Shown here: piece by piece, positions 204 through 8,055 of the stretch
Numbering within the stretch: position 1 is the first letter of the stretch
Layout of the letters: each line of letters opens with the position of its first letter
Assembly (NCBI GenBank): GCA_023150835.1
Contig: JAKLKB010000136.1
Location: forward strand, 1-18,358
Direction of reading: 5' to 3'
DNA length: 18,358 nucleotides
Origin: Myxococcota bacterium
Lineage (GTDB): Bacteria; Myxococcota_C; UBA6777
Position numbers and translations under genes: made by a program
The notes under the pieces: model-generated
Databases searched by the model: none
The model's input: the letters and a program-made list of their open reading frames with translations, nothing else
What the model was told of the DNA's origin: nothing

Positions 204-340
204 GTTGGGGTCTGTACCCTTACCCCCAAAGTGTACAAATAGCTCAATGGCAGAGCGCTTTTTTTCAGAAAAGGATGTTGCGGGTTCGATCCCCGCTTTG
301 TACGACCACTTTGGACACTCGTACAGACCCCAACTTTTTT
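204..340 (+). terminator. Inverted repeat enclosing the tRNA; right arm followed by T6
   Basis: GTTGGGGTCTGTAC (204-217) and GTACAGACCCCAAC (321-334) are perfect 14-bp inverted repeats flanking the tRNA gene, and six Ts follow at 335-340. A second, inner pair, CCAAAGT (226-232) with ACTTTGG (308-314), sits directly against the acceptor stem. In the transcript, leader and trailer could pair into one long stem capped by the tRNA cloverleaf. The T-run suggests the outer stem also works as an intrinsic terminator. The pairing is read from sequence; the terminator and processing roles are inference. Confidence 0.6.
233..304 (+). tRNA. tRNA with UCA anticodon (UGA-reading), type I
   Basis: A complete cloverleaf can be laid out by eye. 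Acceptor GTACAAA (233-239) pairs with TTTGTAC (297-303). The D stem is GCTC/GAGC around a GG-containing loop. The anticodon stem is CTTTT/AAAGG with one G-T pair and loop TTTCAGA, which gives anticodon TCA at 265-267. The variable loop is ATGTT, and the T stem GCGGG/CCCGC carries loop TTCGATC. Conserved tertiary contacts are all possible: T8-A14, A15-T48, G18/G19 with T55/C56, T54-A58 and G26-A44. A UCA anticodon is typical of selenocysteine tRNA, but this RNA has no long variable arm and only a 4-bp D stem, so it is not an ordinary SelC. CCA occurs at 306-308, one base later than expected if G304 is the discriminator; an extra T232-G304 pair would put A305 there. Amino-acid identity is not known. 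It may be an opal-suppressor-like tRNA or an inactive variant. Confidence 0.8.
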
Positions 341-4095: not shown

Positions 4096-5703
4096 ATGCA
4101 AGCCAACCAAACATGGGAGCAATTTTGCGAAAGCTACTGGTGGGACAAGGCTGTCCCATTGCGCCTCGATCTAAGTCGGATGGGCATCCCTGCGGCTTTT
4201 TGGAAAGAGATCGCCCCCAAGATGCAAGCGGCCTTTGAAGAGATGCAACAACTCGAACAGGGCGCGATCGCCAACCCCGACGAACAGCGGATGGTTGGGC
4301 ATTATTGGTTGCGCGATCCCAAGCGCGCTCCTGATCCGACGATCCGCGCCGAGATCGAGCAAAGCGTCCAACGCATCAAAGAATTCGCACATGCCATCCA
4401 CACCGGCCAACTCCGCCCCACCACCCAACCCACCTTTACGCGGTTTTTGCAGATCGGCATCGGTGGTTCGGCCCTTGGGCCTCAACTTGTGTACGATGCT
4501 CTGCGATCTCCTCGCGACGAGATGGAAGGCTTTTTCCTCGACAACACCGATCCCGATGGGATCGACCGATTGATCGCCGATCTGGGTGAACAGATCGCTT
4601 CGACCTTGGTCTTGATCGTCTCCAAGTCGGGCGGCACCAAAGAAACAGCCAACGGGATGTTGGAGATCAAAGCAGCCTTTGAAGCGCGGGGACTGTCTTT
4701 CGAGCGCCACGCCGTCGCGATCACAGGAGCAGGAAGCAAACTCGACGATCTGGCCCAACAGACGGGAATGTTAGACACCTTCCCGATCTGGGACTGGGTG
4801 GGGGGCCGCACCTCCTTGTTTTCGCCTGTTGGTTTGTTGCCTGCGGCTCTCCAAGGCATCGACATCAATCAACTGCTCGCAGGAGCCGCCGTGATGGACG
4901 AATGCACTCGCCGCGCCGATCTCAACAACCCCGCTGCTCGGCTCGCAGCAAGCTGGTACTTTGCGGGGGATGGACGTGGACAACGTGCGATGGTGGTCTT
5001 GCCCTACAAAGATCGGCTGCTTTTGTTGAGCCGCTACCTACAGCAACTCGTGATGGAATCGCTCGGAAAAGAACTCGACCGCGATCAACAAGTCGTCCAC
5101 CAAGGGATCGCTGTCTACGGCAACAAAGGTTCCACCGATCAACACGCCTTTGTCCAACAATTGCGCGACGGAGCCGACGATTTTTTTGTGACCTTTGTCG
5201 AAGTCCTCTTGGATCGCAAAGGCCGATCATTCGAGGTCGAAGACGAGATCACCAGCGGCGATTACCTGCTTGGCTTTTTGTACGGAACCCGACAAGCCCT
5301 CTGGGAAAGCGGAAAACGCTCACTCCACATCACTCTCCCCGAGACTTCCCCCACAAGTCTTGCGATGCTGATCGCTCTCTTTGAACGGGCCGTCGGCCTT
5401 TACGCTTCGCTGATCAACATCAACGCCTACCATCAGCCGGGCGTTGAGGCAGGAAAGAAAGCCGCAGGTGCGTTCCTTGCGCTGCAAAAACAGCTACTCA
5501 CCTTCCTACGCGCCCATCCCCACGAAGCGTTCTCTATCCCGCAGCTTGCCCGTTCCCTCCAATACCCACAACAAACCGATGCCCTGTTTTATATCGCCGA
5601 ACATCTCGCTGCCAACCAACGCTTGATCGCCTCGGATGCACCGCCACTCGCACGCACCTATCAATTCAAAAGCCCACCCACCACGAGCCGTCCGCTTCAT
5701 TAA
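4096..5703 (+). CDS. pgi: Glucose-6-phosphate isomerase
   Basis: Interconverts glucose 6-phosphate and fructose 6-phosphate in glycolysis and gluconeogenesis (cytoplasm). The 535-residue product carries GIGGSALGP at 121-129 and the sugar-phosphate-binding SKSGGTKET at 176-184. WDWVGGRTSLFS follows at about 232-243, then catalytic Glu in VMESLGK (E321), catalytic His in STDQHAF (H350) and PGVEAGKKAA with the active-site Lys at about 454. The length, with an additional C-terminal segment of about 65 residues after the signature, is like the longer bacterial Pgi forms. The ATG at 4096 is preceded by GGAG about 9 bases upstream. It sits 75 bp after the propeller gene and 103 bp before the glmU-like gene, so cotranscription is possible. 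Fructose 6-phosphate feeds amino-sugar synthesis, which fits the neighbouring UDP-GlcNAc-type enzyme. Confidence 0.97.
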   Translation: MQANQTWEQFCESYWWDKAVPLRLDLSRMGIPAAFWKEIAPKMQAAFEEMQQLEQGAIANPDEQRMVGHYWLRDPKRAPDPTIRAEIEQSVQRIKEFAHAIHTGQLRPTTQPTFTRFLQIGIGGSALGPQLVYDALRSPRDEMEGFFLDNTDPDGIDRLIADLGEQIASTLVLIVSKSGGTKETANGMLEIKAAFEARGLSFERHAVAITGAGSKLDDLAQQTGMLDTFPIWDWVGGRTSLFSPVGLLPAALQGIDINQLLAGAAVMDECTRRADLNNPAARLAASWYFAGDGRGQRAMVVLPYKDRLLLLSRYLQQLVMESLGKELDRDQQVVHQGIAVYGNKGSTDQHAFVQQLRDGADDFFVTFVEVLLDRKGRSFEVEDEITSGDYLLGFLYGTRQALWESGKRSLHITLPETSPTSLAMLIALFERAVGLYASLININAYHQPGVEAGKKAAGAFLALQKQLLTFLRAHPHEAFSIPQLARSLQYPQQTDALFYIAEHLAANQRLIASDAPPLARTYQFKSPPTTSRPLH

Positions 5704-5756: not shown

Positions 5757-5823
5757 CAAAGAAGCCTTCGCTTGTCTACCCACAATCTCCACAAAGGAGC
5801 CTTTGCTTGTCTACCCACGATCT
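5757..5823 (+). repeat. Tandem duplication of the glmU-like start region
   Basis: The 32 bp at 5757-5788 recur at 5792-5823 with 3 differences and a 35-bp period. Each copy carries a purine-rich RBS-like block and the words GCTTGTCTACCCAC, so a TTG start occurs in both (5772 and 5807). Only the second has a strong GGAG and opens the long frame. The first opens an overlapping 17-codon frame ending in TGA at 5823-5825. Confidence 0.8.
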
Positions 5824-6787
5824 GAACGTCTTGATCCTCGCCGCAGGCAAAGGGACGCGTATGCGTTCACAGCTTGCCAAAGTTCTCCATCCCATTGGCG
5901 GGATCCCACTCGCGGCGCATCCCGTCCACCTTGCACAATCGCTCTCTCCCCAACGCATCGTCTTGATCATCGGCCACCAAGCCGAGGCCGTCCAAGCCCA
6001 ACTCGATGCGCGTTTTGGCCAAGGCACCTTGCGCTACGCCCTCCAAGCCGAACAACGCGGCACCGCGCATGCCGTCCAATGCGCCCAACAACACCTCCTC
6101 GATGGCCCCCGTGAAGTCTTACTTCTGTGCGGAGACGTCCCGCTTTTGAGCGAAGACACATTGCGGGAGATGCTTCGCCGAAAAGACCAAACCAACGCAA
6201 CCATCGGCATGATCACTTTTGAAGCCGACGACCCCACAGGCTACGGGCGGATCGTCCGAGACGAACAAGGCAAGGTCCAAAAGATCCAAGAACACAAAGA
6301 CTGCAACACCACCGAGCGCTTGATCAAAGAATGCAATGCTGCGATCTACCTCGTCGCACGGGACTTTTTGCTCGATGCCCTCGATCGTATCGACAACCAC
6401 AACGCCCAAGGTGAATTCTATCTCACCGATATCGTCAAACTCGCTGTCCAACAACACCGTCACGTCGAAGCCTTGATCGTCAAAGATGCCGTCGAAGTCA
6501 TGGGCGTCAACGATCGCGCACAACTCGCTTTCCTCGAACAAGAATGGCTCCATCGACGCCAACAAGCCCTGATGAAACAAGGCGTCACGTTCCATCTTCC
6601 CCAAACCATCTGGCTTGATTACGACGTACGCATCGACTGCGACGCCGAGATCGGCCCCCACTGCGCCTTTTACGGCCAAACGCACATCGGCGAAGGCGCT
6701 CAGATCGGTGCGGGTGTTTACCTCAAAGACACGCAGATCCCCGCCCATACGACGCTTTCACCTCGCACCACACGCGGCATGGCGTAA
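5807..6787 (+). CDS. GlmU-type N-acetylglucosamine-1-phosphate uridylyltransferase, no acetyltransferase domain
   Basis: The product is 326 residues. Residues 1-240 match the nucleotidyltransferase half of GlmU, which makes UDP-GlcNAc from GlcNAc-1-P and UTP for peptidoglycan and LPS. Visible motifs are LAAGKGTRM (11-19) with K25, QRGTAHAV (83-90), LLLCGDVPLL with the metal Asp (D110), GYGRIVRD, IQEHKD..., the EFYLTDIV block (203-210) and VMGVNDRAQL (231-240). The linker helix is present, then only about four hexapeptide (left-handed helix) turns before TAA. GlmU is normally about 450-460 residues, so the acetyltransferase active site is absent. No matching sequence follows in other frames. 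The start is TTG 5807 with AAAGGAGC ending 6 bases upstream. It is either a genuine single-function uridylyltransferase or a truncated GlmU; acetylation would then need another gene. Confidence 0.85.
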   Translation: MSTHDLNVLILAAGKGTRMRSQLAKVLHPIGGIPLAAHPVHLAQSLSPQRIVLIIGHQAEAVQAQLDARFGQGTLRYALQAEQRGTAHAVQCAQQHLLDGPREVLLLCGDVPLLSEDTLREMLRRKDQTNATIGMITFEADDPTGYGRIVRDEQGKVQKIQEHKDCNTTERLIKECNAAIYLVARDFLLDALDRIDNHNAQGEFYLTDIVKLAVQQHRHVEALIVKDAVEVMGVNDRAQLAFLEQEWLHRRQQALMKQGVTFHLPQTIWLDYDVRIDCDAEIGPHCAFYGQTHIGEGAQIGAGVYLKDTQIPAHTTLSPRTTRGMA

Positions 6788-7167: not shown

Positions 7168-8055
7168 GTGGAAACAAAACGATGGTGGGGATGGCTGTTG
7201 AGTTGCCTTGTCGGCTTGGGGTGGAGTGCTTCACCCGCTCAAGCGACCTTGTTGGTATACCGCAGCCTCGACCAACAGATCCAAGCCGCAGCAAGCATCG
7301 TGCGTGGCCGTGTCTTGCACAAGCACAGCTTTATCTACCACGGCAACGGACACATCTACACGGACGTTCGTCTACACGTCCTTGAAACGCTCAAGGGCCA
7401 AGCCCCTCACGAACTGATGATCCGTCAACTCGGTGGAACAGTCGGAGAGCGTACCACCTTGATCGCGGGTGCTGCGCGGTTCTCGCTCGGTGAAGAGGTC
7501 GTCGTCTTTTTAGAAGCCCTTCGCCAACCCGACTTCCTCTTTGTCCAAGATCTCGGCGCTGGAAAATACACCGTATTTCTCCACGAAGGACGGACCTTGA
7601 TGCGCCGATCCGTCGAGGGTCTCGCCTTTTACCGCCACACCCCCAACGCCGCTGACCGCATCCGCACCCCCCAATTCAGCGAACGCCCGATGGATCTCGA
7701 TATGTTGCGCCAACGCGTTCAGATCCTCCAGCAACAACCGACGCTTTATCTGCTCAAGCCCCCGACACAGCGCTTTGAAGAACGGCTGCAACGCGCCAAA
7801 GATTCGATCACACCGCGCCTACCCGTCCCGCAACCTCTCCCCGCCTTCCAAGATCCCCGTCATCCCGTCCGTTCCATCTACGACCAAAGCACACAAAAGA
7901 CAGTTCCCCTGCGCGTCTTACAAAAACAACGGCTGCCTTTTTTTGTCACCCCGCTGCGCGGCGCACTCCTCCAAAAACGCCTTCGTTCCGCTCCTTCTCT
8001 GCTCTCTCCCACCACCTCCAACTCACCATCTCCCTCGCAAGGAGGCTCCCGATGA
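7168..8055 (+). CDS. Exported protein of unknown function, coupled to the matrixin
   Basis: A 295-residue protein when started at GTG 7168. That start has GGAGG 5 bases upstream and gives a clean signal peptide: METKRWW, a hydrophobic core, cleavage near SPAQA|TL at about 26. The alternative ATG at 7156 only adds four residues and overlaps the GGAGG. The mature N-terminal half (about 28-145) looks like one compact domain with VRGRV, IYTDVRLHVLETLKG, LGGTVGER and FSLGEEVVVFL. I have seen this general pattern in exported proteins of unknown function but cannot name a family. The C-terminal half is rich in Gln, Pro, Arg and Leu and looks flexible. Its stop overlaps the next start (ATGA), so it is translationally coupled to the metalloprotease gene, suggesting a chaperone, inhibitor, substrate or partner role. 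That role is inference. Confidence 0.8.
   Translation: METKRWWGWLLSCLVGLGWSASPAQATLLVYRSLDQQIQAAASIVRGRVLHKHSFIYHGNGHIYTDVRLHVLETLKGQAPHELMIRQLGGTVGERTTLIAGAARFSLGEEVVVFLEALRQPDFLFVQDLGAGKYTVFLHEGRTLMRRSVEGLAFYRHTPNAADRIRTPQFSERPMDLDMLRQRVQILQQQPTLYLLKPPTQRFEERLQRAKDSITPRLPVPQPLPAFQDPRHPVRSIYDQSTQKTVPLRVLQKQRLPFFVTPLRGALLQKRLRSAPSLLSPTTSNSPSPSQGGSR

Follow-up and report, generated by a model that had tools for sequence, protein, structure and literature searches.

A putative bacterial Y RNA gene with a complete cloverleaf in Myxococcota, and a Ro60-family partner protein that carries an EF-Tu domain 3

Introduction

Y RNAs are non-coding RNAs that partner Ro60, a protein of RNA quality control. 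Bacterial Y RNAs are tRNA mimics with a basal stem that binds Ro60 (PMC8394870). The basal stem binds Rsr and the tRNA-like head contacts PNPase, giving the RYPER complex in which the decay of structured RNAs is altered; one of these RNAs, YrlA, is a substrate of tRNA-modifying enzymes (PMC8394870). YrlA (RF02553; Salmonella, Mycobacterium) has a tRNA-like domain, is encoded near Rsr/Ro60 and, in the RF02553 alignment, has the T arm before the D arm. The Y RNA of Deinococcus radiodurans (RF01053) has a basal stem formed by its paired ends, a Ro60-family partner, and a D region, a hairpin and a T arm in natural order above an acceptor-like stem; the RF01053 model has no paired D stem. Another RNA to be considered is the selC* tRNA-Cys, which carries a UCA anticodon, occurs in other delta-proteobacteria and is recognised by having U73 together with a modified 8/4 branch (PMC7609411).

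The window discussed here (the whole stretch of DNA that was analysed, 18,358 nucleotides from a Myxococcota bacterium) contains exactly one tRNA call, which ARAGORN places at 232-308 and labels tRNA-SeC(TCA). Based on its anatomy, its genomic context and its partner protein, we read this feature as a probable bacterial Y RNA gene of the Yrl type with a topology like that of the Deinococcus Y RNA, with a probability of roughly 0.9. It shares with the Deinococcus RNA the basal stem of paired ends, the Ro60-family partner and the natural order of the arms, and it aligns end to end with RF01053 (25.3 bits, E 0.0077 for this stretch) but has a complete cloverleaf. The alignment score falls far below the Rfam gathering score of 80, and the element lies outside the narrow Rfam Y RNA families. 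The tRNA-like domain is also a feature of YrlA, but here the arms are in natural order and the domain is joined to the basal stem via the acceptor stem. A bacterial Y RNA is a known kind of RNA. What is new is the complete cloverleaf in natural order, the presence of several copies with a shared acceptor-like stem, and the fusion of Ro60 to EF-Tu domain 3, although the earlier literature may mention such fusions or Y RNAs with full cloverleaves.

Genomes and Searches

The window comes from the genome referred to as G000. G001 is a sister species (contig labelled Myxococcota bacterium KLAP109), G003 belongs to another genus (contig labelled Deltaproteobacteria bacterium NP119), and G004 is a related genome with two Ro60 genes. 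Three copies of the element from each of G000, G001 and G003 make up a nine-copy alignment. A covariance model of the family, R1, was run over 241 genomes, and matches below ~100 bits were left out of the family because ordinary tRNAs score 60-70 bits. The Y RNA candidates of phages and of G004 are backed by their position and by the ACUYG and basal-stem motifs, not by score.

Two further features of this assembly can be mentioned. In the window, positions 5807-6787 hold a GlmU-like open reading frame of only 326 aa that, judged by eye from the translation, has an N-terminal uridylyltransferase and a short remnant of the left-handed helix. An odd tRNA array at L044 (G000:C34:13500-16200), L046 and L051 includes tRNA-Leu genes (GAG, CAA, TAG and TAA) with short variable arms; the canonical set is found elsewhere, and the array looks phage-type although it lies within the same assembly.

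Anatomy of the Window Element

The initial annotation described a complete tRNA at 233-304 with a UCA anticodon and a 5-nt variable loop. The intact cloverleaf was borne out by Rfam RF00005, which aligns with 233-304 over the full length and scores 62.9 bits, far above the cut-off of 29. The D loop and the anticodon loop are each 7 nt, the T stem is 5 bp, and the bases of the tertiary contacts (G18G19, U54U55C56 and A58) are all in place. The boundaries had to be moved outwards, since the flanks pair with each other: 204-217 pairs with 321-334 (14 bp) and 226-233 with 307-314 (8 bp), enclosing an internal loop. The element therefore spans 204-334 on the forward strand, a hairpin of 131 nt with a folding energy of -52.6 kcal/mol and a fold z of -6.1. 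Its extent is supported by the fold, by conservation in the G001 orthologue and by the weak match to RF01053.

From the base upwards, the 5' strand of the outer basal stem (204-217) is followed by the 5' side of the internal loop at 218-225, CCUUACCC, which in alignments of the copies takes the family form YCYYAY.., and by the 5' strand of the inner basal stem at 226-233, CCAAAGUG. The six innermost pairs of the outer stem covary among the copies, and compensatory changes are found in 5 of the 8 inner pairs. The acceptor-like stem is formed by UACAAA (234-239) and UUUGUA (297-302) and is invariant in 9/9 copies. Above it, the Rfam tRNA alignment places a D-arm-like hairpin at 242-256, an anticodon-arm-like hairpin at 258-274 (loop UUUCAGA at 263-269, with the UCA "anticodon" at 265-267) and a T-arm-like hairpin, GCGGG-UUCGAUC-CCCGC, at 280-296. 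All five pairs of the anticodon-arm stem show compensatory change among the copies, and the T arm is likewise supported by covariation.

On the 3' side, the fold and the alignment leave an unpaired bulge, CGAC (303-306; 4-5 nt in the family), at the site that holds the discriminator and CCA in a tRNA. The 3' strand of the inner stem, CACUUUGG, follows at 307-314, supported by fold and covariation. The CCA near 306-308 does not mark the 3' end of a tRNA, because it belongs to CACU, which comes after the bulge and is paired with AGUG. The 3' side of the internal loop (315-320, ACACUC) has the family form RAACUY followed by G in the alignments, a motif also present in the candidates from G004 and huge phages. 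The 3' strand of the outer stem occupies 321-334 and is immediately followed by a T run (TTTTTT, 335-340) that is a probable intrinsic terminator. The terminator scan, limited to loops of 3-8 nt, could not detect this run, and a search for a sigma-70 promoter-like site gave no hit.

The pairing of the flanks sets the element apart from the tRNA genes of the same genome. When the 55 tRNA calls in G000 were compared, the window element had the strongest flank-to-flank pairing (-36.5 kcal/mol), and ranks 2 and 3 were taken by its two sister copies. The 52 ordinary tRNA genes had a mean of -8.7 kcal/mol (sd 3.9), with a best value of -17.1. The folded hairpin has no free tRNA 3' end. The acceptor end lies inside a flanking helix of 22 bp.

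Copies and Conservation

A search with the 131-nt sequence returned an orthologue in G001 (98%) and a full-length match in G003 (70%). There are two further copies in G000, orthologues of all three in G001, and three copies in G003, so that the search of relatives proposed in the initial annotation did yield both an orthologue and family copies. The cloverleaves of all copies start with GUACAAAU and end with UUUGUA and thus have the same acceptor-like stem, and they carry different "anticodons", which ARAGORN assigns in the siblings to Asn(GTT), Ile(GAT), Pro(TGG), Asp(GTC) and Lys(CTT). In the nine-copy alignment, 98.7% of the cells are paired and 19/34 pairs show a compensatory change. These changes fall in the outer, inner, D, anticodon and T stems, and the UACAAA:UUUGUA helix is without any variation. 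The ACUYG loop is common to all nine copies. With model R1, the nine copies score 115-124 bits and everything else in the 241 genomes scores 70 or less, mostly ordinary tRNAs. Folding of single sequences recovered the shape in 5/6 copies; the G000 GAU copy fails when folded alone and is covered by the consensus structure and by R1. Comparison of the copies thus establishes a predicted 131-nt RNA with a two-part basal stem, a conserved internal loop and a complete cloverleaf joined via its acceptor stem, and it likewise establishes that there are paralogues whose "anticodons" differ and that sister copies are located at the gene for a Ro60-family protein.

In G000 as in G001, the window copy is found upstream of hutI, apart from the Ro60 locus. 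This position, together with the fact that its upstream neighbours are beyond the contig edge, could be taken to mean that the feature is an inactive relic, or a decayed tRNA gene with a hairpin formed around it by chance. We consider this very improbable. The element is 98.5% identical to its G001 orthologue, with both differences in loops, whereas identity in the non-coding DNA beside it falls to 76% upstream and 87% downstream (Fisher p 3e-6 against the element), and there is strong covariation among the copies. The high identity relative to the flanks and the placement of the changes argue that the window element, as judged from its sequence, is a maintained solo copy. The synteny with hutI in two species, and the lack of similar DNA in the phage collection, also led us to reject the suggestion that it is a phage-borne tRNA.

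The capture of a cognate tRNA was considered as the origin of each "anticodon" and was rejected, as only the G003 CUU copy resembles a canonical tRNA (Lys/Trp) and the others group unclearly.

Evidence Against a Decoding tRNA

The UCA anticodon, U33, the intact cloverleaf and the SeC label from ARAGORN would all fit a working tRNA that reads UGA, whether as an opal suppressor or as a variant of tRNA-Cys or tRNA-Sec that resembles selC*. SelA is encoded in G000 (513.7 bits), so the organism probably uses selenocysteine, and the UCA-bearing selC* tRNA-Cys of other delta-proteobacteria would provide a precedent. Several lines of evidence make such a tRNA a most unlikely reading. A canonical tRNA-Sec is found elsewhere in the genome, at G000:C24:10826-10916 (RF01852, 70.6 bits; also called SeC by ARAGORN), which together with SelA answers the proposal that selA and a regular selC should be looked for. 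Among the RF01852 matches listed for G000 the window element does not appear, and it has neither the long variable arm nor the 8-bp acceptor. The view that it is not a standard selenocysteine tRNA was therefore right. The extension of that view to a non-canonical selenocysteine or cysteine-type tRNA finds no support, because the sequence lacks U73 and the 8/4 architecture in addition to the regular selC being present, and inspection of the window ORFs revealed no selB or cysS copy.

Reassignment of UGA is ruled out by the presence of RF2 in the genome. The genes that had been cited as ending in TGA do so (stops at 8055, 11480, 13897 and 17934), and the statement that UGA is not simply reassigned stands. 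RF2 and the TGA stops also speak against an opal suppressor, as do the buried acceptor end and the siblings, in which the same acceptor stem goes with GUU, GAU, UGG, GUC or CUU. Some of the sibling anticodon loops are unlike those of decoding tRNAs, with G33 in place of U33 in the GUU copy and U37 in the GAU copy. G304, which had been taken as a discriminator that would fit a tryptophan-like identity, does not act as one in the alignment: the other copies have A at position 72, and the unpaired 4-5-nt bulge precedes CACU. Among the four explanations originally offered, a non-translational role comes closest to the Y RNA reading, and the suppressor and the Sec/Cys-type tRNA are unsupported.

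The Ro60-Family Partner Protein

In G003, an ORF of 640 aa directly follows three copies of the element on the same strand. G000 encodes a 646-aa homologue of this ORF with two copies 4 kb upstream, and the arrangement in G001 is alike. The Pfam TROVE profile (PF05731) gave no match to the partner protein, and Ro60 would have been wrongly excluded by a TROVE search because that search alone finds nothing. The vWA_Ro60 profile (PF25045) gave 26.2 bits, just under its cut-off of 27.7. An AlphaFold (AF2) model of the partner was obtained with a pLDDT of 73.6. When this model was used in a Foldseek search, ranks 1-13 were all Ro60, Rsr or TROVE structures from the PDB (E 1e-12 to 3e-8), and VIA-align gave Z values of 16-19 over 415-445 residues (18.4 over 443 residues for 2nvo). 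Both programs place a HEAT-repeat TROVE ring and a vWA fold across residues 8-504, as in the known Rsr/Ro60 structures (2NVO, 1YVP, 9NEN, and 9L5Y from phage phiLo), to which the sequence identity is 14-17%. On the basis of the modelled fold and the vWA profile, the partner is assigned as a divergent Ro60. In two genera, the neighbours of the Y RNA/Ro60 locus include a conserved protein that fuses SHOCT, a Ser/Thr kinase and an FGE-sulfatase (L074:7134-9779 and L075:10492-12918; 41% identity).

EF-Tu Domain 3 on Ro60

The C-terminal residues of the partner (~555-640) match EF-Tu domain 3 (PF03143, cut-off 27) with 29.8 bits in G003 and 26.8 bits in G000, and this domain is 32-35% identical to the EF-Tu encoded in the same genome (E 3e-12 and 1e-15). 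Modelled alone, the domain had a pLDDT of 60, which is low confidence; all 50 matches listed by Foldseek for this model were EF-Tu or EF-Tu-containing structures. The domain is found on the Ro60 proteins of G000, G001 and G003, but it is absent from the Ro60 homologues of G004 and of huge phages.

In EF-Tu, domain 3 contacts the T stem of tRNA. The contact residues, which we take to be R330, H331, Q341, T350 and E390 in Thermus numbering, are by alignment all present in G003 (5/5), and G000 has R330, H331 and E390. It is tentatively suggested that the cloverleaf head docks on the EF-Tu domain 3 of Ro60. A coupled system can be imagined, equally speculatively, in which the T-stem face of domain 3 would clamp the head of the Y RNA and damaged or deacylated tRNAs would compete for it, so that the particle might serve as a tRNA sensor or as a machine for tRNA quality control in which the Y RNA acts as a built-in decoy. 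Domain 3 and the cloverleaf are not strictly linked, because phage Ro60 proteins without the domain also have cloverleaf-type RNAs.

Relatives in G004 and Huge Phages

G004 (L154:3429-7725, G004:C41) has two tandem Ro60 genes, each with a Y RNA candidate just upstream; an ORF that resembles a vWA protein lies between them. One candidate (L154, 7602-7725) has its D, anticodon and T arms in natural order. The other (4929-5059) has the permuted order of YrlA and matches RF02553 with 24.9 bits (E 0.0035; gathering score 69). Both have a near-identical basal stem, CCGYGCCCUNAC...AAACUUGCRCGG. The occurrence of natural and permuted heads on one basal stem suggests that Ro60 binds the part they share, the basal stem. 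Divergent Ro60 homologues of huge phages (on contigs as long as 595 kb; L130-L134 and L153) also have cloverleaf-type RNAs nearby, several with ACUYG, and at least two such candidates are found in LR756511.1, an uncultured phage of 595 kb.

These relatives bear on whether the element is instead a tRNA precursor with strong leader-trailer pairing, which would be processed to a minor tRNA and would also be a Ro60-bound quality-control substrate. The cloverleaves do score on par with real tRNAs, and the body of the G003 CUU copy is close to tRNA-Lys/Trp. Even so, we regard a precursor as improbable, with little to separate its chances from those of the readings already set aside. The acceptor-like stem is identical despite the different "anticodons", and in G004 the same basal stem is found under a permuted YrlA-type head; together these indicate that the unit is the Y RNA scaffold. 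For the Y RNA reading, the window element has the basal stem of paired 5' and 3' ends with a tRNA-like domain atop it, and proximity to a Ro60/Rsr gene is found for the sister copies in G000, G001 and G003 and for the G004 candidates, although not for the window copy itself. The basal stem, the cloverleaf, the Ro60 context of the sister copies and the parallel in G004 all argue for a bacterial Y RNA.

Proposed Function and Implications

We propose that the Ro60 homologue of this cell would be bound through the basal stem together with the invariant UACAAA:UUUGUA junction. The head, with its cloverleaf, would mimic a tRNA without taking part in decoding; UCA would then have no codon-reading role and may have arisen by chance, in a loop that varies freely while its stem is conserved. 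The head could be held by the EF-Tu-domain-3 extension of Ro60, or pass the particle on to PNPase in the manner of the Deinococcus RYPER, or do both. In this way the Y RNA may gate or tether Ro60 for the handling of structured or damaged RNAs. The window gene, as a solo copy upstream of hutI, would act in trans.

Standard tools call the window RNA a selenocysteine or suppressor tRNA, so Y RNAs of this kind may hide among the "odd tRNAs" of many genomes and huge phages. A Ro60 that is naturally fused to the T-stem-binding domain of EF-Tu, with Y RNAs that have complete cloverleaves, would offer a concrete and testable answer to the purpose of the Y RNA head.
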